Assembly (NCBI GenBank): GCA_023701385.1 | Contig: JAMPXC010000002.1 | Span: 62,001-126,000 of the forward strand | From: Pseudobdellovibrio sp. | Lineage (GTDB): Bacteria > Bdellovibrionota > Bdellovibrionia > Bdellovibrionales > Bdellovibrionaceae | Length of the DNA stretch: 64,000 bases | Direction: 5' to 3' | Part shown: positions 53,512-64,000 of the stretch, one piece after another | How the letters are laid out: each line of letters starts with the position of its first letter | How positions within the stretch are numbered: position 1 is the stretch's first letter | Position numbers and translations under genes: made by a program | The notes under the pieces: generated by a model | What the model was told of the DNA's origin: nothing | Databases searched by the model: none | What the model saw: only the letters and a program-made list of their open reading frames with translations

Positions 53512-53594
53512 AAAAGTCGTACAGAAAAACTAGACTCGACTCAAAAGCCTTGATGGTAGCGGTTTTTAAGCTATTTAGTCCAAACTGCTTATCT

Positions 53595-54611
53595 ATGAAG
53601 AAAAGGATAAAAACACAAAATCAATTCGCAAAAACAGTAACAATCTACACAGCCGCTTTTCTCTTAACAGGACTATTTTCAGGCTGTTTAAACCCAGACC
53701 TTACATCAAGCACTTCTTCAACGACGTCTGACGACAATAACTCCCAAGCAACTCCGACAACTTCGGGAACACCGACAGTGTCGCAACCGCCGGTCGTAAT
53801 ACCTACGCCGACGCCCACTCCAACACCTGCACCAGAACCACCCCCAACACCAGCTCCTAGCACGGGGTATACGGCCGCTATTAAAGATATTGCCGCGAAA
53901 TCGTCGTGTTCCCAGTTTTCGTTTACGAGCCGTGGTAAGCCGCCTATGGCTTATTTAAAAGGGATGTCGTTAACTTATGCGCGAAGTCTTTGCCGTATTC
54001 GTGCAAACCCAGTTAAACCTGCAGCTTCAATTTTAAAATCAGCAAGTTCAGGCAATGCCGCAAAAGATGTTTTGGCTCACTACAGCAGTATCTTAGCTAA
54101 TGCCGGTCTGCAAACAAGCCCAGCCGGTGATGAGCCCCTGCATTCAACTTATGTGATTGGTGTGGGATTGGGAATGCGTGAAAGTTCTGGCCGCTATTGT
54201 GTCGGTTGGGATACCGCTGCGGGATCTGATCGTTCGTCATCTGAAGGTGAAGCAGGTTTATTCCAGCAAAGTTACAATTCAATGGGAGCTTCAACAGAAT
54301 TACGTAAACTTTATGACGAATACTTAGCTGATGAAAGCCGCTGTCATTTAGCGACGTTTAAAGAAAATGTGAGTTGTTCGGCGCAATCGGTTCTAGGATC
54401 GGGTGCAGGGGCTGATTACCAAGCGTTTTTAAAACGTTGTCCGGCTTTCGCTACAGAATATGCGATGACTTTGATTCGTATTTTACGTGCGCACTTTGGG
54501 CCGTTAAACCGCCAAGAAGCGCAAGTCGTACCAGCGTGTGATACGATGTTAAGCCAAGTGCAAAAACTTGTAGAATCAAATCCTGAAGCCGCTTGTGCAG
54601 AGCTATTTTAA
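53595..54611 (+). CDS. Lipoprotein with lysozyme-like (transglycosylase-type) domain
   Basis: A 338-residue lipoprotein. The lipobox GLFSGC is near residue 32, then a Ser/Thr stretch and a Pro-Thr-rich spacer (about 60-95) that would hold the domain away from the membrane. The C-terminal domain (about 110-338) has a lysozyme-like look: GMRESSGRYCVGWD with candidate catalytic Glu196, then EAGLFQQSYNSMG, resembling the GLMQ helix of lytic transglycosylases. Eight cysteines suggest disulfides. Peptidoglycan cleavage is a reasonable inference but the match is short. The start is ambiguous: ATG at 53595 gives a proper signal peptide; an upstream ATG is at 53550. Confidence 0.68.
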   Translation: MKKRIKTQNQFAKTVTIYTAAFLLTGLFSGCLNPDLTSSTSSTTSDDNNSQATPTTSGTPTVSQPPVVIPTPTPTPTPAPEPPPTPAPSTGYTAAIKDIAAKSSCSQFSFTSRGKPPMAYLKGMSLTYARSLCRIRANPVKPAASILKSASSGNAAKDVLAHYSSILANAGLQTSPAGDEPLHSTYVIGVGLGMRESSGRYCVGWDTAAGSDRSSSEGEAGLFQQSYNSMGASTELRKLYDEYLADESRCHLATFKENVSCSAQSVLGSGAGADYQAFLKRCPAFATEYAMTLIRILRAHFGPLNRQEAQVVPACDTMLSQVQKLVESNPEAACAELF

Positions 54612-55407: not shown

Positions 55408-57165
55408 ATGAAAAAGATTAATCTGATCTTCTTATTAGGAAGTATAGCTTTAACTTGGGGATGCGCCCAAGCACCTGTGGCTATTTCTGAAAAGACGATT
55501 TATTCAGATCTTTTTCCACAACACGAAACGCGTACCGGCTATTACAGAGATGTGGGGCTTGGTTATTTAAATGATAATAACTATGACAAAGCCGTTGAGT
55601 ATTTTAAGTTATCATTACTGCATGATCCTGCAAATGATGATGCTCGTTATTGGTTAAGTGTTTCTTTTCATAAGAAAAATCAAAATAACTTAGCGTTAAT
55701 TGAATTAGAAAAGTTAAGCGATGTAAGCCAGTTTGAATACGCACGCTTAAAATTAGTTTCAGATATTTATGAATCGGCTGAATCTTTTGAAAAAGTCATT
55801 GCGATCAACGAAAAACTTTATGATCTAAAAAAAGAAAATTTTCCCTTATGGAAAATCTATCAAATGAATTTAAATATGAACCGTTTGGATAAGGCATCGG
55901 CTAATTTAGCAGCATTAGAAAAAAACAGTGAAGAGGCTTACCGCGTGCATTTAGGCCGCTTTGAAGTGTTTGAAAGACAAAATCAATTTGAACAAGCGTT
56001 GAGCGAATTGCAATTAGCTGAAAAGGCAAAACCATTTGATGTATTAACCATGAAGAAAATGACGGCGATTCAGTATGATCTGCGTAAATGGCAAGATCTG
56101 TACACGCTGGGTACGAAATTCTCGAAGTATCATCCGTATGATTTAGATGTGTCTGAGCGTTTATCGCAAGCCTGTATCCGTATTGGTGCTTATGACGATG
56201 CAATTGCCGAATTAAAAAAGCAAAAAGAAATGTACCCAGATTCAGTGGGTATTGAATTTAAAATTGCCCATGTTCTTTTCTTAAAGCGTGATTTCGCGAA
56301 TGCGGAAGAGTTGTATCAAGAATTGTATGAAATTACAAAATCTGACCAATCAGTATTCTTTATTTCACAAATCCACTTAGCCCAAAACGACATTGATGAA
56401 GCCACAAATAGCTTAGAAAATTTAGCTTCGTGGTCTGAGTATTATCCGGCAGCGCAAGTTCAGCTAGCGCGCTTGGAATGGAAAAATAGCCAAACAGACT
56501 TAGCCTTAAACCGTTTACGCCGTGCTCATCAACTGCGCCCTGATTCTTTAGAGCTTTATCAAGAGTACGGCCAGTTTATGATTTGGAAAAAACGCTACGT
56601 TGAATCTATCGCGCTTGTTGAGCAAGGCATTAGATCGTTTCCAAAAGATGATAAGTTACGAATTCTTGCGGCGTACATTCATTTTAAATTGAACAATATG
56701 AAAGGCTTTCAGCACCAAATCGAACTGGCGAAAAAGCTGAACCCAGAAAATTCAGAAATTTATTCAGTGTTAGCAGAGCTTTGGTATGAAAAGAAAAAAC
56801 CTTATTCTGAACTAGAGTTTTTGGCGGCAAAGGCTTTGGAACTTAAAACGAGAAATAAGAATATTAAGCCGTTACTGGCATGGGCCTTATTACAACAAGA
56901 TAAGATGGCTGATGCAGTAAAAATGTTTGAAGAGTTCTATGATGCCGAACCTAACGAGCTTTTCTATGCGGAATCGTTAGCTGATATTTACCAGCGAAAT
57001 GTTTTGACGTCGAAAAATCAAGAGTTTCAAAAGAAGGCTGCCGCCTTACAAGCTGATGCTAAAATTAAGTCAGAACTTGACTATTTTAGATTCCAATCAC
57101 AGCAAGAACGCTTAAAAACTGATGGTGATGGAAATCGACTTCCGGCTAGTCTAGAAGAGCCATAA
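55408..57165 (+). CDS. TPR-repeat lipoprotein
   Basis: A 585-residue lipoprotein with lipobox LTWGC (Cys18-19). The mature chain is almost wholly tetratricopeptide repeats (about 12 to 14), for example GLGYLNDNNYDKAVEYFKL and YQEYGQFMIWKKRYVESI. TPR lipoproteins scaffold outer-membrane assembly and export (BamD, PilF, AlgK/PelC types). It is followed 48 bp later by the LysM beta-barrel protein and further on by the fibre genes, so it may be a periplasmic scaffold for that system. The ATG at 55408 follows an AAGAGAAG; a GTG lies just before it. Confidence 0.85.
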   Translation: MKKINLIFLLGSIALTWGCAQAPVAISEKTIYSDLFPQHETRTGYYRDVGLGYLNDNNYDKAVEYFKLSLLHDPANDDARYWLSVSFHKKNQNNLALIELEKLSDVSQFEYARLKLVSDIYESAESFEKVIAINEKLYDLKKENFPLWKIYQMNLNMNRLDKASANLAALEKNSEEAYRVHLGRFEVFERQNQFEQALSELQLAEKAKPFDVLTMKKMTAIQYDLRKWQDLYTLGTKFSKYHPYDLDVSERLSQACIRIGAYDDAIAELKKQKEMYPDSVGIEFKIAHVLFLKRDFANAEELYQELYEITKSDQSVFFISQIHLAQNDIDEATNSLENLASWSEYYPAAQVQLARLEWKNSQTDLALNRLRRAHQLRPDSLELYQEYGQFMIWKKRYVESIALVEQGIRSFPKDDKLRILAAYIHFKLNNMKGFQHQIELAKKLNPENSEIYSVLAELWYEKKKPYSELEFLAAKALELKTRNKNIKPLLAWALLQQDKMADAVKMFEEFYDAEPNELFYAESLADIYQRNVLTSKNQEFQKKAAALQADAKIKSELDYFRFQSQQERLKTDGDGNRLPASLEEP

Positions 57166-57213
57166 TCATAAGATCGTTTGATTAATCCTAAAATGTTATC
57201 AAATAATTAAGGT

Positions 57214-58533
57214 ATGCGAAGTATCAATTTCATCCTTTGGGTTTTCCTTGGGGGCTTGTTTTCTGCGGTTGTGGCCGCAGCCGCACCACTTAACAGGGTT
57301 GAGGCTTCGCCTCAAAACAAGGCTTGTTCGCCAGTTGTTAAAATAACAAAATACAAAATTTCAAAAGGTGAGCATGCCGCTGCGGTCCTTCGTAAATTCG
57401 GTCTTGAGCCTGTGTTTGGCAATAAAGGCTCGATGAATGATCTTCTTAAAGTTAATAACTTTCAAAATCCAGATGTGATTTCTCCGGGCACGATCATCAC
57501 TTTACCTTTTCATTGTGAAGAAGAAGTAAAGCCTTACAAAATTATTCAAGACGAAAAAGAATTTCGTATGGTTTCGACAGAAATTGTAAAATCGGAGCCG
57601 ATCGTTCTCGCTCCACCGGTTTCTGCGGCGGTTGCAGTAAAGCCTGTTGATAAATTCAGTGAAATCGTGGCAAAGCCTGCTGACCAGCAAATTCAAGATG
57701 TCGAAGCGGCTGAGAAATCTCAGGATAATATTTCAGAAGCTTTACGTTACCGTATGATCTGTGAAGGTGAATGGACGGGATCAGAATGTATCACACGTTA
57801 TTCGGCGATCTTTGCAAACATCGGTGGGTACAATAATAGATATGATGGTGTGGATTCAAATGCCTTACCTGGCGCACAAAAAGATGGTTTGCTACTTTCA
57901 AAATTAAATTTAGCAGCCGGTTTTGGCTGGAACAATTATTGGAATGAAAATGTTAAAACAGTTTTGTATGCCGAATTGCAGGACAATCAAATGCTACCGG
58001 ATATTAAAAGCGTTCCGATCGAAGGTGGCGATCGTTTGTTGACAAGTTTGCAAGCCGAGGCCCGCTATGAAAAAGGCAATTGGGGTTTCGGTCTGGGCTT
58101 TCGTCAGTTTGATAAATTGTACTATGTTTTTAGCTTTCAAAACCTAATTTTAGGCAGCATTTGTACGGTAAACGATGTGTCGCTTTGCGGAGTACGGGTA
58201 TATTCAGCGAATATTTCTTCATTGTTTTTTGATATCAGTTATCTGCTCTATCAAGCCGGTAAATTTAGATTTGAAACCGAGCTTAAATATTTCACTTTAG
58301 CTGCGACTAAAGTCAGTAATGTAGACGTGCAAGCAGGTTCGGGTCAAAGTATCGAGTTTTCAGTCACGCATGATCGCATAGAAGAGTATTTAAAAGGAAC
58401 TCTTCGTTACGCAATGGCGTCGCAGGATACATCCATTGAAACACAAAATGCGAAAGAATTAGCGTTGTTTTTTACATACTCTTGGAAGTTAAAAGACTGG
58501 TCAGAGGCTGCAATCAAAGCGGACAAGCCATAA
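57214..58533 (+). CDS. LysM-domain outer-membrane beta-barrel protein
   Basis: A 439-residue exported protein with a signal peptide ending near VVAAAAP (residue 25). A LysM-type peptidoglycan-binding domain covers about 45-107 (YKISKGEHAAAVLRKFGL, then NPDVISPGTIITLPF). A linker leads to a C-terminal barrel (about 195-435) of alternating strands such as GLLLSKLNLAAGFGW. It would anchor the outer membrane to the wall near the barrel. In the two FecR/TPR-barrel pairs elsewhere the periplasmic part is FecR plus TPR; here TPR and LysM come in separate genes. No transport substrate can be inferred. Confidence 0.78.
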   Translation: MRSINFILWVFLGGLFSAVVAAAAPLNRVEASPQNKACSPVVKITKYKISKGEHAAAVLRKFGLEPVFGNKGSMNDLLKVNNFQNPDVISPGTIITLPFHCEEEVKPYKIIQDEKEFRMVSTEIVKSEPIVLAPPVSAAVAVKPVDKFSEIVAKPADQQIQDVEAAEKSQDNISEALRYRMICEGEWTGSECITRYSAIFANIGGYNNRYDGVDSNALPGAQKDGLLLSKLNLAAGFGWNNYWNENVKTVLYAELQDNQMLPDIKSVPIEGGDRLLTSLQAEARYEKGNWGFGLGFRQFDKLYYVFSFQNLILGSICTVNDVSLCGVRVYSANISSLFFDISYLLYQAGKFRFETELKYFTLAATKVSNVDVQAGSGQSIEFSVTHDRIEEYLKGTLRYAMASQDTSIETQNAKELALFFTYSWKLKDWSEAAIKADKP

Positions 58534-58626
58534 TAATAAAAAATTTTATCCGAAAAATCTTAACAAAAAATTCACTGAAACGCTTAAACCAAAAGTCCAA
58601 AACATGTCTAGTCCTGTTGTGCGAAC

Positions 58627-58641
58627 GTCTTGAAACAAGAC
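58627..58641. promoter_or_regulatory. GTCTTG-AAA-CAAGAC palindrome upstream of the fibre locus
   Basis: A perfect 6-bp inverted repeat with a 3-nt centre, about 120 bp before the Ig-like lipoprotein gene, with a further TGTCTAG at about 58606-58612. A candidate operator of the lipoprotein-fibre operon. Confidence 0.4.
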
Positions 58642-58761
58642 AAAATGTTAGTAGGTAAGATTACAAGCGGCGCTGAGGTTTTTAAAAAATGGTCATAAGC
58701 TAAATTATGGTAATATTTAAGGAAGCGCGATTTGTGGCACGTAGTAGGAGACGAATACGTT

Positions 58762-59886
58762 TTGAATAAAATGAAAAACATTTCATTTTTATTTCACAAT
58801 TTCGGGCGCAATAAAGTTGCGCTTGTTGTCTCATTTTGTGTTCTGGTGCAAATATTCTTTTTTTCGGGTTGTAATTTTAATTTACTGGGTGGAAAGAATT
58901 CTAAAATTTCTGCCGGGTATAACCCGGGTCTGCGTACTGAGTCTTCTCCGCCGTCAATTAGTCCTATGACAGATCGTGAAATGGATGAGAACGATGTTGT
59001 CAGTTTATCATTTCAAATTTCAGATCCTGATACGTTTTTATTTTGCAGTGCGATCAATATAGCAGCCCGCTCGTCTGATCACGGTGTGGTCGACCCGAAA
59101 AACATGTCGGTATCGGGAACTTATCCTAACTGTGTGTTAACGATTCGTTCAAGTTCAGTAACAGAATCAAAACAAATTACAATCTCCGTAGATCTTTTCG
59201 ACTACTGGACAACAGTCAGCACAAGTTTTTTGTTAACTGTTCGCCGTGTAGAAAAACCAGGTCCATTTAAAATCACAAGCACTGAAGGGTTGAGAAAATC
59301 TATTTTAGTAAATTGGACAAAAGCAGATTACATGGATGGAACTTCGGCTCGGTACACTTTATATTACAAAAAAATTGCCGACCAAAACTTACAACCATCG
59401 ACATTTAACGGTATTATGCCGGTTTACCAAGCTTCACCATCTGCTTCGCAAGGCACATTTATCGAAGTTGTAGGTGCAACAAGTCCTTACTGGATCACAG
59501 CTCCTGACCATACTTTAGATGACAGCACGATTTATGAAGTTTATATCACTGCCAGAAACGGTTTTAATAATAAAAATCCAGACGTGCCACCTGAAGAAAC
59601 AAAACATGTGTTCGTTAGAACTTTAGATCGCTTTCAATTTAAAGTACGCGAGTTTGTGGCCGGTAGCCAACAGGAATTTAAACCACCGGCAGTGCACGCA
59701 GCGGCTTGCACCGGCGGCGGTAATGTTCCTCTGTCTCCTGCTTTTGAATTTTGCACTGATTCAGACAGATATTTTACGCAAGCTACTTTTGCCAGCCCGA
59801 TGGAGCGCACATCGGTGCTCACCGGATCTTCTAGGTATCGCGTGTACTTGAACGGTCAGGGTTTAATGTATGGAGAGTCTCCATGA
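58762..59886 (+). CDS. Lipoprotein with Ig/FN3-like repeats preceding the fibre gene
   Basis: A 374-residue lipoprotein. A long signal segment ends in lipobox FFSGC (about residue 37). The mature chain looks like two or three beta-sandwich modules; SILVNWTKADYMDGTSARYTLYY is an FN3-like strand pair and SLSFQISDPDTFLFCSA a cadherin/Ig-like one. Start: TTG at 58762 has GGAG 11 bp upstream, but ATG at 58771 or 58732 cannot be excluded. Its stop overlaps the ATG of the fibre gene by 4 bp (ATGA), so both are made from one transcript and the lipoprotein is a likely anchor or chaperone for the fibre. No family recognised. Confidence 0.72.
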   Translation: MNKMKNISFLFHNFGRNKVALVVSFCVLVQIFFFSGCNFNLLGGKNSKISAGYNPGLRTESSPPSISPMTDREMDENDVVSLSFQISDPDTFLFCSAINIAARSSDHGVVDPKNMSVSGTYPNCVLTIRSSSVTESKQITISVDLFDYWTTVSTSFLLTVRRVEKPGPFKITSTEGLRKSILVNWTKADYMDGTSARYTLYYKKIADQNLQPSTFNGIMPVYQASPSASQGTFIEVVGATSPYWITAPDHTLDDSTIYEVYITARNGFNNKNPDVPPEETKHVFVRTLDRFQFKVREFVAGSQQEFKPPAVHAAACTGGGNVPLSPAFEFCTDSDRYFTQATFASPMERTSVLTGSSRYRVYLNGQGLMYGESP

Positions 59887-62800
59887 TTAAACTAACAGCT
59901 AAATGTCTGGCCCGCCTGGTGGCTCTTTTATTGTTTTTAGCTCCATTTATCGCAAATGCACAGGCGTTCGGACCGCAATTAACTTATCATGGCCGCATCT
60001 TAGATACAGCGAACTCAAATGCTCCAGTCAGTGGATCTGTTCAGTTCTTAATGCAAGTGGTGCATCCTGATGTTCCGACTTGCGTTCTCTATCAAGAAAC
60101 ACAAACACAGAATTTAACGGCAGCTGATGGTAACTTCACTTTAACAGTTAACGGTGGCAGCTCGACTTTACCGGCGGCTTTATTAAATCCATTCGCAGAT
60201 ATTTTCATTACTGATCCAACAAGAACTATTAATTGTATTAACGGTGGTACTGTTCCAGGTACGGCGAATTCACGTCGATTAAATGTGTACTTCGTTCCGC
60301 CGGGTGGATCAGCTTATGAACCTCTTCCTTCGCAAGCGATTAACTACGTGCCATTAGCTATCGAAGCCTTAAATGCTGGTACTATTGGTGGCTTTGGGGC
60401 TTCAAGTTTATTAAGAGTTGTTGAGATTAACGGGTTCGGTGTTCCGGTTCCGTATGCAGTTCCTGCGATGACTCGTCCTTTATATGAAGAATTAGATAAT
60501 GTTGTAAAAGGTCAAAGTTCTTACTATGTAACATCACAGGGAACTGTGGCGAATTTTTCAAACCCGCTTCAAGGCGAGGTTACAGGTTCGCAATCAGGCA
60601 CTGTTGTTAGCCGAATTTTTGGCCGTCCGTTAACAACAGTGGGTTCAACATTTGTCGGTGGAGAAGTTTTATATTACGACGGTACAAATTGGATTTCTCG
60701 CCAAGGCAGTAAAGGTACTGTGCAGTCGATTATTTCGGCGAATCCTTATCTTGGTGTAACTGGCGCTCCGCCATCGAATGATCCGACAGTTGATGCGATG
60801 TTAACACTTAATGTGGGTACAGTCGCAAATACTGTAGCCGCGGGTAATGATCCGCGTATCGTTAACGCGTTTCAAATAACAACCCCATTATTAGGTGATG
60901 TGACGGGCACAGTTTCGGCCACAGTTGTTTCAACAGTGGGCGGAAAAACTTCAGTGCAAATTTCACAAAGTGTATCTGATACGCAAGCAGCTACTTCAGC
61001 CAATACGGCAAGCACAATCGTTAAACGTGATGGTTCGGGTAATGTAGCTGTAAATACATTGTCAGCGACAAATTCTTCAATTAGAAATTTATTACTTTAT
61101 AATGTAGCTAATACGCAGGCTGTAACAGTTAACGCTCCAGCGGCTTTAGCGGTTAGTTATGTTTTAACTTTACCTTCAACAATGCCGGTCAGCGGCTTTG
61201 TTTTAGCAACAGATGCTTCTGGAAATACATCGTGGATTTCTCCAACGACAGGCAATGTAACAAATGTTGCAGCGACGGCGCCGCTAGCTTCAACTGGCGG
61301 ACAAACGCCTACGATTTCAATCACGCGAGCATCAACAACAGTTGATGGTTATTTGGCAGCAACAGACTTTGCAACTTTTAATAATAAAGTGGCTTCAGTT
61401 ACGACGACAGCTCCGATTACTTTAGGCGGAACTTCACAAACGCCTACTATTGGTTTACAAGATAGCGGAGTCATTGCTGGAACATATACGAAATTTATCG
61501 TAGATATCAAAGGTCTTATTACAAGTGCGACTACTTTACTGGCTTCTGATATTCCGAATTTAGACACTTCAAAAATTACAACAGGAACATTTCCGATTGC
61601 CCGGGGTGGTACAGGCGCAAGTTCATTAGCTGGCAGCGGTTTTGTAGCAGTGGATGCCAGTGGTTCAGCTTTAACAAGTACAGTTTGTGCTTCTGATGAA
61701 GTTCCTTTCTTTAACGGCACAACTTGGACATGTAAGTTAGCTTCGTCAGCAAATTCAAGTGCGACGCTAGTTATGCGCGATGCGAACGGCAACTTTACCG
61801 CGAATAATATCACGACTGTTCAAGATATGACTGTGCAACGTAATTTACGTGTGCAAGATGGAATGGTCGGCGGTTATATCGGTTTAACTACACCAGTCGG
61901 TGTAGGAAGTTATGATATCGTATTACCAAACAATGCTGTACCGCCAAATGTGGGACAAGTAATGGCGGTAACTTCTGCAAGCTCTGCAACAGTAGCTACA
62001 ACTTGGATTACCGCTTTAACAGATGTATTAGCTAGCGGACACATCATTGTGGGTAATGCTTCGGGCACAGCCACGCCGGTTCTGATGAGCGGTGATGCAA
62101 CACTATCTAATACAGGAAACTTACAATTAATTTCAATGGGTGCTGGTGTTGTTTCTGGCACTGAATACACGAAAGTCACTGTTGATGGCAAAGGTCGTGT
62201 AACATCCGGCTCACAATTAAATAATGCAGATGTTGTGGCTGGTTTAGGTTATGTGCCGATGAATTCAGTTTCAGCGGTAGCACCGATTATGTTAACAGGC
62301 GGTGCTTCAAATCCAGTATTTAGTTTAGCTTTCAGCGGTGTCTCTTCAGGAGCCTATGGTTCAAATACTTTAATTCCAAATTTTGTTGTTGATGAATGGG
62401 GAAGAATTACTTCAGCAACAATGTCGACTTATGCTGATGCTACGAATGTAACAAAAGGTATTGTACAGGTTGGAGCTAACATCACGGTAACCGCAGGTAC
62501 GATTTCGGTTACAAGTGCCAATGTGGTAGCCGCGATGGGTTCATTAAGTGGCGATGTTTCAGGTACATTAGATAATACAGTTGTTCAAACTGTAGGTGGA
62601 AAAACGGCTGCACAAATTTCACAAAGTGTGAGCGATACTCTTGCAGCAACTGATTTAAACTCAAGCGGAACTATTGTTAAACGTGATAACAATGGTAACT
62701 TTACCGCGAATAATATCACAACTGTTCAAGATATGACTGTACAACGTAATTTACGTGTACAAAATGGTATGGCGAATTACATCGGTATTACGACGCCGAT

Positions 62801-64000
62801 CGCGACACCAAGTTACGATATCGTATTGCCGAACAACGCCGTGGCTCCCAATGTGGGCCAAGTGTTGTCGGTAGCAACTGGTTCCACCTCATCAGTTATC
62901 GCAACAACGTGGATTAATGCTTTAACAGACACACTAGCTCCAGGTTTCGTATTCGTTGGTAATGCTTCTGGTACTGCAACGGGTGTTGCCATGAATGGTG
63001 ATGCGACAATGTCTGATACAGGTAACTTGCAATTAATTTCTGTAGGTGCGGGAGTTACATCAGGATCACAGTACACGAAAGTTACAGTTGATGGTAAAGG
63101 CCGCGTGACATCAGGGGCGCAGTTAAATAATGCTGATGTTGTTTCTGGTTTAGGTTATGTGCCGGTGAACTCGGTTTCTACAACAACGCCAATTTCTTTA
63201 AGTGGTGGTGCTTCGAATCCGGTGATTGGTTTAAATGCGAGTGGTGTGGTTTCTGGTGCTTACGGTTCAAATACTTTAATTCCAAATTTTGTTGTTGATG
63301 AATGGGGAAGAATTACTTCAGCCACAATGTCGACTTATGCTGATGCTACGAATGTAACAAAAGGTATTGTACAGGTTGGAGCTAACATTACTGTCACTGC
63401 TGGCACAATTTCGGTAACAAGCGCTAACGTTGTTGCTGCTATGGGAGCATTAGGTGGTGATGTATCCGGAACTCTTGATGCGACTGTAGTTCAAACTGTT
63501 GGCGGAAAAACAGCTGTACAGATTTCTCAATCAGTATCAGACACGATTACTGCAACTCATTTAAATTCGAGCGGTACAATTGTTAAACGCGATAATAACG
63601 GTAACTTTACCGCGAACAATATCACAACAGTTCAAGATATGACTGTACAACGTAACCTGCGAGTACAAGATGGCTCTGTCGGTGGTTATATTGGTATTAC
63701 CACGCCGATCGGTATAACAAGTTATGATATCGTATTACCAAATAATACTGTCGCTCCGAACGTTGGCCAAGTGTTGTCGGTAGCAACTGGTTCTACCTCA
63801 TCGGTTATTGCTACAAGATGGATTAACGCTCTAACAGATTCTTTAGCACCAGGTTTTGTATTTGTGGGTAATGCATCAGGTACGGCAACTGGCGTTGCGA
63901 TGACTGGTGATGCAACAATGTCGAATACTGGTGACTTACAATTAATTTCGGTAGGTTCAGGAGTGACTTCAGGATCACAGTACACAAAAGTGACTGTTGA
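59883..64000 (+). CDS. Giant secreted tail-fibre-like protein with tandem repeats (partial, runs off the window)
   Basis: An open frame of over 1370 codons with no stop before the right edge, secreted through a signal peptide ending near IANAQA (residue 30). Residues 30-160 form a beta-sandwich starting QLTYHGRILDTA, a common first domain of such fibres. Phage-fibre signatures follow: YDGTNWISRQG, VAAGNDPRIV and ARGGTGASSL. From residue 641 a 302-residue unit repeats, with two full copies and part of a third. Long secreted trimeric fibres with these features are known in Bdellovibrio as mosaic adhesive trimeric (MAT) proteins used to recognise prey; their C-terminal tip and chaperone-of-endosialidase domain would lie beyond this window. 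Confidence 0.85.
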   Translation, partial: MIKLTAKCLARLVALLLFLAPFIANAQAFGPQLTYHGRILDTANSNAPVSGSVQFLMQVVHPDVPTCVLYQETQTQNLTAADGNFTLTVNGGSSTLPAALLNPFADIFITDPTRTINCINGGTVPGTANSRRLNVYFVPPGGSAYEPLPSQAINYVPLAIEALNAGTIGGFGASSLLRVVEINGFGVPVPYAVPAMTRPLYEELDNVVKGQSSYYVTSQGTVANFSNPLQGEVTGSQSGTVVSRIFGRPLTTVGSTFVGGEVLYYDGTNWISRQGSKGTVQSIISANPYLGVTGAPPSNDPTVDAMLTLNVGTVANTVAAGNDPRIVNAFQITTPLLGDVTGTVSATVVSTVGGKTSVQISQSVSDTQAATSANTASTIVKRDGSGNVAVNTLSATNSSIRNLLLYNVANTQAVTVNAPAALAVSYVLTLPSTMPVSGFVLATDASGNTSWISPTTGNVTNVAATAPLASTGGQTPTISITRASTTVDGYLAATDFATFNNKVASVTTTAPITLGGTSQTPTIGLQDSGVIAGTYTKFIVDIKGLITSATTLLASDIPNLDTSKITTGTFPIARGGTGASSLAGSGFVAVDASGSALTSTVCASDEVPFFNGTTWTCKLASSANSSATLVMRDANGNFTANNITTVQDMTVQRNLRVQDGMVGGYIGLTTPVGVGSYDIVLPNNAVPPNVGQVMAVTSASSATVATTWITALTDVLASGHIIVGNASGTATPVLMSGDATLSNTGNLQLISMGAGVVSGTEYTKVTVDGKGRVTSGSQLNNADVVAGLGYVPMNSVSAVAPIMLTGGASNPVFSLAFSGVSSGAYGSNTLIPNFVVDEWGRITSATMSTYADATNVTKGIVQVGANITVTAGTISVTSANVVAAMGSLSGDVSGTLDNTVVQTVGGKTAAQISQSVSDTLAATDLNSSGTIVKRDNNGNFTANNITTVQDMTVQRNLRVQNGMANYIGITTPIATPSYDIVLPNNAVAPNVGQVLSVATGSTSSVIATTWINALTDTLAPGFVFVGNASGTATGVAMNGDATMSDTGNLQLISVGAGVTSGSQYTKVTVDGKGRVTSGAQLNNADVVSGLGYVPVNSVSTTTPISLSGGASNPVIGLNASGVVSGAYGSNTLIPNFVVDEWGRITSATMSTYADATNVTKGIVQVGANITVTAGTISVTSANVVAAMGALGGDVSGTLDATVVQTVGGKTAVQISQSVSDTITATHLNSSGTIVKRDNNGNFTANNITTVQDMTVQRNLRVQDGSVGGYIGITTPIGITSYDIVLPNNTVAPNVGQVLSVATGSTSSVIATRWINALTDSLAPGFVFVGNASGTATGVAMTGDATMSNTGDLQLISVGSGVTSGSQYTKVTV
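60890..61220 (+). repeat. Degenerate half repeat within the fibre gene
   Basis: The protein segment GDVTGTVSATVVSTVGGKTS...IVKRDGSGN is a diverged version of the GDVSGTLDNTVVQTVGGKTA...IVKRDNNGN segment at 62550 and 63456, but the following part (SIRNLLLYNVAN...) has a different sequence. It shows that the repeat array decays towards the N-terminus. Confidence 0.6.
61803..62708 (+). repeat. Fibre tandem repeat unit 1 (906 bp, 302 residues)
   Basis: Begins at the AAT of NNITTVQDMTVQRNLRV and ends before the same motif 906 bp later. The frame is maintained exactly (302 codons). It contains VLPNNAVPPNVGQVMAV, GNASGTATPV, VTVDGKGRVTSG and YGSNTLIPNFVVDEWGR landmarks, all recurring in unit 2. Confidence 0.9.
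62709..63614 (+). repeat. Fibre tandem repeat unit 2 (906 bp, 302 residues)
   Basis: Same landmarks as unit 1 at exactly 906-bp spacing. Bases 62358-62482 of unit 1 and 63264-63388 here differ at only one of 125 positions, while the following 60 bases encode the same 20 residues with about 16 codons changed. Confidence 0.9.
63615..64000 (+). repeat. Fibre tandem repeat unit 3 (incomplete at window end)
   Basis: Begins with NNITTVQDMTVQRNLRV again, 906 bp after unit 2, and continues in frame to the last base. How many further units follow is not visible. Confidence 0.85.

Follow-up and report, generated by a model that had tools for sequence, protein, structure and literature searches.

The right-hand end of a 64,000-nucleotide stretch of Pseudobdellovibrio sp. 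DNA (the window; contig JAMPXC010000002.1, positions 62,001 to 126,000) carries four consecutive plus-strand genes, which encode a TPR lipoprotein, an outer-membrane barrel with a LysM domain, a second lipoprotein with Ig-like and FN3-like domains, and a giant fibre of the mosaic adhesive trimer (MAT) family, members of which take part in Bdellovibrio prey recognition (PMC10769870). All four genes were found where a preliminary description of the sequence had placed them, and their features are as follows.

55408-57165 (alternative start 55405), plus strand: TPR-repeat lipoprotein, about 586 residues, with Pfam TPR matches and a lipid-bearing cysteine
57214-58533, plus strand: LysM-barrel outer-membrane protein, 439 residues, from a LysM profile, an AlphaFold2 model and orthologs in 7 further congeneric genomes
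57343-57507, plus strand: LysM domain, residues 44-98 of the barrel protein, from Pfam, a family profile and the AlphaFold2 model
57793-58494, plus strand: predicted beta-barrel, residues 194-427, C-terminus ...WKLKDW, from the AlphaFold2 model and fold comparison
58771-59886, plus strand: Ig/FN3-like lipoprotein, 371 residues from the ATG at 58771, mature N-terminus CNFNLLGG
59641-59883, plus strand: conserved C-terminal module of this lipoprotein, ending ...SSRYRVYLNGQGLMYGESP, aligned over 8 orthologs
59883-59886, plus strand: ATGA overlap of the lipoprotein stop and the fibre start, read from the sequence
59883-64000 in the window and on to the contig end, plus strand: giant MAT fibre, at least 3459 residues
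59940-60416, plus strand: MAT N-terminal domain, fibre residues 20-178 (NF053851.1, 76.2 bits)

The fibre and its neighbouring genes

The fibre has no stop before the window edge, as had been noted, and its frame is still open at the contig end (132260), 3459 codons from the ATG at 59883. Its match to the NCBIfam model Bdello_MAT_N lies above the curated cut-off of 60 bits, so that the fibre belongs to a known family and is not a new kind of protein, and the domain, which is conserved and beta-rich in the family, stands right behind the signal peptide. This gives the supposed mosaic adhesive fibre a definite family, and the phage-tail signatures reported for it reappear as a match to a PHROG tail fibre (E 9.5e-6). 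The shaft is modular, consisting of 63- and 98-residue units within blocks of about 302-463 residues.

The only complete ortholog is found in Bdellovibrio sp. qaytius (CP025734; G013), where the four genes recur and the fibre ends after 4489 residues. The SDxxxK motif of S74 was not found at the C-terminus of this ortholog, and a Pfam scan of its last 644 residues returned no domain, including no match to a C-terminal YadA-type (type Vc) anchor; a weak match to a PHROG of unknown function covers its final 59 residues. In these scans neither S74 nor another known tip fold was found in the ortholog, which leaves the expected endosialidase-type chaperone without its motif and places the fibre with the non-S74 MATs. 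Judged by its sequence, the fibre is thus giant, but by family an ordinary MAT of the non-S74 kind. Another contig of the genome (C29) carries an ortholog of the gene that follows the qaytius fibre, but no fibre lies beside it there, and an extension of the window fibre by this route was dropped. In qaytius, a Gly-rich secreted protein is encoded on the minus strand (L033:16909-18096) and overlaps the end of the fibre gene; a role like that of T4 gp37/gp38 was dropped because no fibre adjoins its homologs in G007, G008 and G005.

The ATG of the fibre at 59883 shares bases with the TGA of the preceding lipoprotein gene in a 4-nucleotide overlap, which confirms the coupling of the two genes described earlier. 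The lipoprotein is 68% identical to its qaytius ortholog and combines a single Ig-like and a single FN3-like domain with a short module at the C-terminus; the name Ig-like lipoprotein was accordingly correct for the first domain, but incomplete. The Ig-like sandwich is predicted at residues 60-160 by a structure model with a mean pLDDT of 55, which outside this domain is too weak for a fold search, and the fn3 match (0.0011) is under the cut-off.

The barrel gene ends 237 nucleotides before the lipoprotein start. The LysM domain of its product is under threshold in Pfam (0.0049), and the family profile matches the Ecp6 LysM effector (4b8v; E 1.1e-5). AlphaFold2 predicts about 10 long strands for residues 194-427, in a model whose pLDDT averages 67 and is mostly 70-90 within the barrel part. 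They resemble the 10-stranded OpcA, OmpT and Pla (Z 17-19) more closely than autotransporter and invasin barrels (Z about 9-11; invasin 8.8). The chain ends directly behind the barrel, without a passenger. The TPR lipoprotein matches many Pfam TPR models above their cut-offs (e.g. TPR_19 at 3.4e-24), and its N-terminal lipid cysteine is invariant in 9 of 9 homologs. A match to TPR_Slam is weak (1.4e-4, under cut-off), cross-matches among TPR models being common. An identity of the TPR and barrel proteins with the gliding machinery (Glt) was rejected, since an NCBIfam scan returned only generic TPR matches, none above its cut-off.

The order TPR lipoprotein, LysM-barrel, lipoprotein and MAT (hereafter the cassette) is present in 8 congeneric genomes, namely the window genome (G000), G013, G009, G007, G005, G008, G003 and G004, the last of which has two extra genes behind the TPR gene. 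The recurrence in 7 other genomes indicates that the four-gene arrangement is not due to chance, and the different flanks, which fall into at least 3 contexts over the 8 genomes, indicate that it is not mere synteny. In G011, an assembly that is only 79% complete, the qaytius post-fibre gene is kept, the TPR gene and the LysM domain form one continuous reading frame, and barrel, lipoprotein and fibre have all disappeared; from the sequence, this looks like a single deletion that took out the block together. Upstream of the cassette, the window encodes a Pro-rich secreted protein with a lysozyme-like stretch (53550-54611; GMRESSGRYC...GLFQQS), which is kept at this place in qaytius. The MAT N-domain has no match at E <= 0.001 in G002, a single-contig, 100% complete genome of the same genus, and 41 of the 60 searched genomes have one.

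Lipoproteins and barrels at other MAT loci

The preliminary description proposed to look for the lipoprotein-fibre coupling at other fibre genes, and it does recur there, in some cases together with a barrel, so that the refuting outcome named in that description, fibre genes without any such linkage, did not occur. The survey covered 124 MAT loci from 35 genomes, picked by similarity to the N-domain of the window fibre, 121 of which have at least 500 nucleotides upstream. Reading frames with a lipobox that end -20 to +60 nucleotides from the fibre start were sought automatically, which gave 29 linked cases among the 121; after manual editing of the MAT set (one doubtful case removed; L038, L040 and L184 added), the gene immediately before the MAT encodes a lipoprotein in 31 of 121 cases, spread over 24 genomes, and in 22 of these the two genes overlap by exactly 4 nucleotides. 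The same automatic test was positive for 13 of 144 control genes, or 6 of 137 once 7 MATs or cassette neighbours are set aside. The ratio of linked to control genes is only indicative, since the survey leans to window-like fibres, manual additions were made on the MAT side only, relatedness makes the genomes non-independent and the controls come from few genomes. On a tree of MAT N-domains, the coupling labels need 19 changes compared to a shuffled mean of 26, in a run where the true positives L038 and L040 carried the wrong (uncoupled) label. A single origin of coupling was rejected, the labels being clustered on the tree, but with many gains or losses.

In G018, the tips of two MATs with a linked lipoprotein match the crystal structures 8okw (4.7e-59) and 8oks (7.6e-54), and the position of the tips together with protein length identifies them as orthologs of Bd2734 and Bd2740; the two genes lie side by side in divergent orientation, and each has a lipoprotein of its own. 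Of six MATs tested by single deletion in B. bacteriovorus, Bd2734 and Bd2740 are the two for which predation was slightly but significantly impaired (PMC10769870). According to the same study (Caulton et al. 2024), the surface element that binds the shared MAT N-domain awaits identification. The words lipoprotein and operon were not found in its main text, and no mention of Bd2735, Bd2736 or Bd2739 was found in the literature searched.

Most MAT-linked lipoproteins are short (mature length about 75-105 residues). A profile built from 10 such lipoproteins of other genera matches the C-terminal module of cassette lipoproteins at L040 (8.8e-6), L039 (0.0021) and L035 (0.0071) among 4414 frames, the qaytius ortholog scoring 0.28. 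No family covering the linked lipoproteins or the module was returned by the Pfam and NCBIfam scans; a SadB-like family was likewise absent from the general library scans, in which no direct comparison with SadB was made. The module profile has a match in 56 of 141 genomes of the order. Among the 30 matching loci listed, a recognised MAT follows directly in 12, several stand alone, and others come after an apparent fibre end. Standalone module lipoproteins lie by a TonB-receptor-like gene in the window genome (L262:6617-6922, contig G000:C8) and in a relative (L263:6165-6452). The module was therefore rejected as MAT-exclusive and is better described as MAT-associated.

The combination of LysM-barrel, lipoprotein and MAT is also present in two other genera (G022 and G020; barrel profile 43 and 27 bits, respectively). 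The junction of barrel and lipoprotein overlaps in both, and in G022 both junctions are 4 nucleotides long. In addition, a lipoprotein and a MAT are preceded by a DUF4421 protein in G018 and, in G014 and G048, by proteins that belong to no Pfam family; we read these, from their sequences, as probable barrels. All LysM-barrels seen adjoin a lipoprotein. The TPR gene, on the other hand, is confined to the cassette of the window genus and is absent from the other barrel-lipoprotein-MAT loci examined.

A possible outer-membrane base for the fibre

The fibre family is known, and what is new is the gene neighbourhood, that is, the recurring lipoprotein and barrel beside MATs. Like the described MATs, the window fibre has a signal peptide followed by the N-domain and a long phage-fibre-like shaft, and falls in the non-S74 subgroup, but it exceeds their usual length of about 1000 residues several times over, has a repeat-built shaft and no recognised tip, and lies in an operon with a TPR lipoprotein, a LysM-barrel and a lipoprotein, which is not mentioned in the main text of PMC10769870. 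On sequence grounds, the recurring lipoprotein and, in some lineages, the LysM-barrel make good candidates for the role of the missing anchor or of an assembly helper, and we infer that they anchor the fibre. The fuller reading, to which we give about an even chance, is that the four genes specify a giant MAT fibre of the non-S74 kind and an outer-membrane base belonging to it, where the lipoprotein serves as adaptor to the LysM-barrel. Lipoprotein and fibre would be made together and exported by Sec, and the lipoprotein would sit in the outer membrane, docking with its N-terminal N-P/L-L/F-G region on the barrel and with its C-terminal strand module on the conserved MAT N-domain. The LysM domain of the barrel could then grip the peptidoglycan and, as an anchor, bear the load of a fibre several thousand residues long, the TPR lipoprotein might scaffold the base from the periplasmic side, and the fibre repeats would keep the tip far off the predator surface for contact with prey or substrate. 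The motif N-[PL]-[LF]-G just behind the lipid cysteine occurs in all 11 lipoproteins that adjoin a LysM-barrel and in 1 of 20 others, counts that come from only about four independent lineages and concern a motif chosen after the sequences had been seen.

The presence of the motif speaks for such a base; the small number of lineages behind the counts weighs against it, as do several other points. Most of the surveyed MATs (90 of 121, among them 8 others of the window genome) have no linked lipoprotein, so that it is not needed in cis, and one MAT of G035 seems to have lost its lipoprotein and yet keeps a long fibre frame. In this gene (L154, G035:C10:23545-27500), the signal peptide looks like that of a linked lipoprotein joined to the beginning of the MAT, which would fit an in-frame deletion of the lipoprotein body. 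Furthermore, G047, G028 and G017 have a LysM-barrel and lipoprotein without a MAT, and the module is also seen apart from MATs, next to the TonB-receptor-like gene, and in Bdellovibrio on the downstream side of a MAT. Finally, the window's own lipoprotein is not among the matches of the module profile, which means that the module is linked to the window through its orthologs.

A rather unlikely alternative is that the lipoprotein acts in the periplasm as a chaperone of assembly or trimerisation and not as a permanent anchor, its coupling serving stoichiometry at synthesis, with the barrel as a separate OmpA-like envelope protein. SadB is described as a trimeric lipoprotein that helps the surface display of the type Vc adhesin SadA (PMC3953254); the pairing of a lipoprotein with a trimeric adhesin is alike here, the lipoprotein being encoded upstream with a 4-nucleotide overlap, but the MAT lacks a C-terminal membrane anchor and the window locus has an additional LysM-barrel. 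The overlap fits co-synthesis, and the many tiny MAT-linked lipoproteins without a barrel neighbour suit a helper of this kind, whereas the constant adjacency of LysM-barrels to a lipoprotein, even where there is no MAT, and the extra Ig/FN3 domains of the cassette lipoprotein suit a structural part better. An envelope partner has also been proposed to hold a very long trimeric fibre in the case of TpgA, a periplasmic protein that strengthens the membrane hold of the trimeric adhesin AtaA (PMC13082670), but AtaA bears its own transmembrane domain, and in the window the LysM is joined to a separate barrel.

It is improbable that only the lipoprotein-fibre pair is functional and that the TPR and barrel genes are kept by operon inertia: the gap between barrel and lipoprotein and the restricted occurrence of the TPR gene would fit this, but the order is kept while the flanks change, the loss in G011 is joint, the barrel-lipoprotein junctions overlap in two other genera, and unrelated probable barrels precede the lipoprotein in G018, G014 and G048. 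It is equally hard to favour the barrel, with or without the TPR lipoprotein, as an export conduit for the fibre or lipoprotein, comparable to Slam or a split intimin/invasin translocator, which we regard as quite improbable. The order of signal peptide, LysM and beta-barrel, with Ig-like domains nearby, does resemble intimin and invasin (type Ve), and the weak TPR_Slam match and the TPR-LysM fusion of G011 point the same way. The model, however, predicts about 10 and not 12 strands and a closer likeness to OpcA, OmpT and Pla than to invasin, the barrel has no passenger and the fibre is a separate protein; unlike in Slam, TPR and barrel are separate genes here and not one chain, TPR models readily cross-match, and most MATs have no such linked barrel. 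According to the model, a LysM domain with a small, narrow barrel is more in keeping with a membrane anchor tethered to the wall than with a pore for export, which leaves the export role proposed in the preliminary description unsupported. RadD is an autotransporter. Together with the small lipoprotein FAD-I (PMC7023056), it resembles the window locus in that lipoprotein and large adhesin share an operon, but the RadD system is not known to have a LysM-barrel.

Bdellovibrio prey recognition rests partly on MAT fibres, and with lipoproteins linked to about a quarter of the sampled MATs, including the Bd2734 and Bd2740 orthologs, there are now named genes for the study of the element that binds the N-domain. 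If true, the adaptor-and-barrel base would show how a Gram-negative bacterium holds phage-like fibres of several thousand residues without an autotransporter domain.

Giant Ig-repeat lipoproteins and related loci

Lipoproteins that start with C[ST]RNPLGE and consist of Ig repeats reach 8539, 4213, 3192 and 3190 residues (G013 C1:725451-751070; L089:1279-13920; L090:4329-13907; L091:5616-15188). A conserved barrel-like protein of 246-255 residues is encoded directly behind them, in qaytius with a 176-residue gene in between. These barrels are colinear with the LysM-barrel over 185 columns, in a weak hhalign match (probability 2.7%, E 0.017).

A wider and rather doubtful proposal is that Bdellovibrionota have a modular display base for giant fibres, composed of a barrel and a lipoprotein whose first residues (N-P-L-G) mark the barrel partnership. 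One version would present a MAT via the C-terminal adaptor and another would bear the fibre on the lipoprotein itself (the Ig repeats of up to 8539 residues, followed by the barrel), and the base would be the surface element that holds MATs.

Three secreted proteins of very different builds (L040:3814-5697, L259:11888-12907 and L260:9957-10973) have a similar N-terminus past the signal peptide, of the type QV[FI]IPFS[FY]WK.

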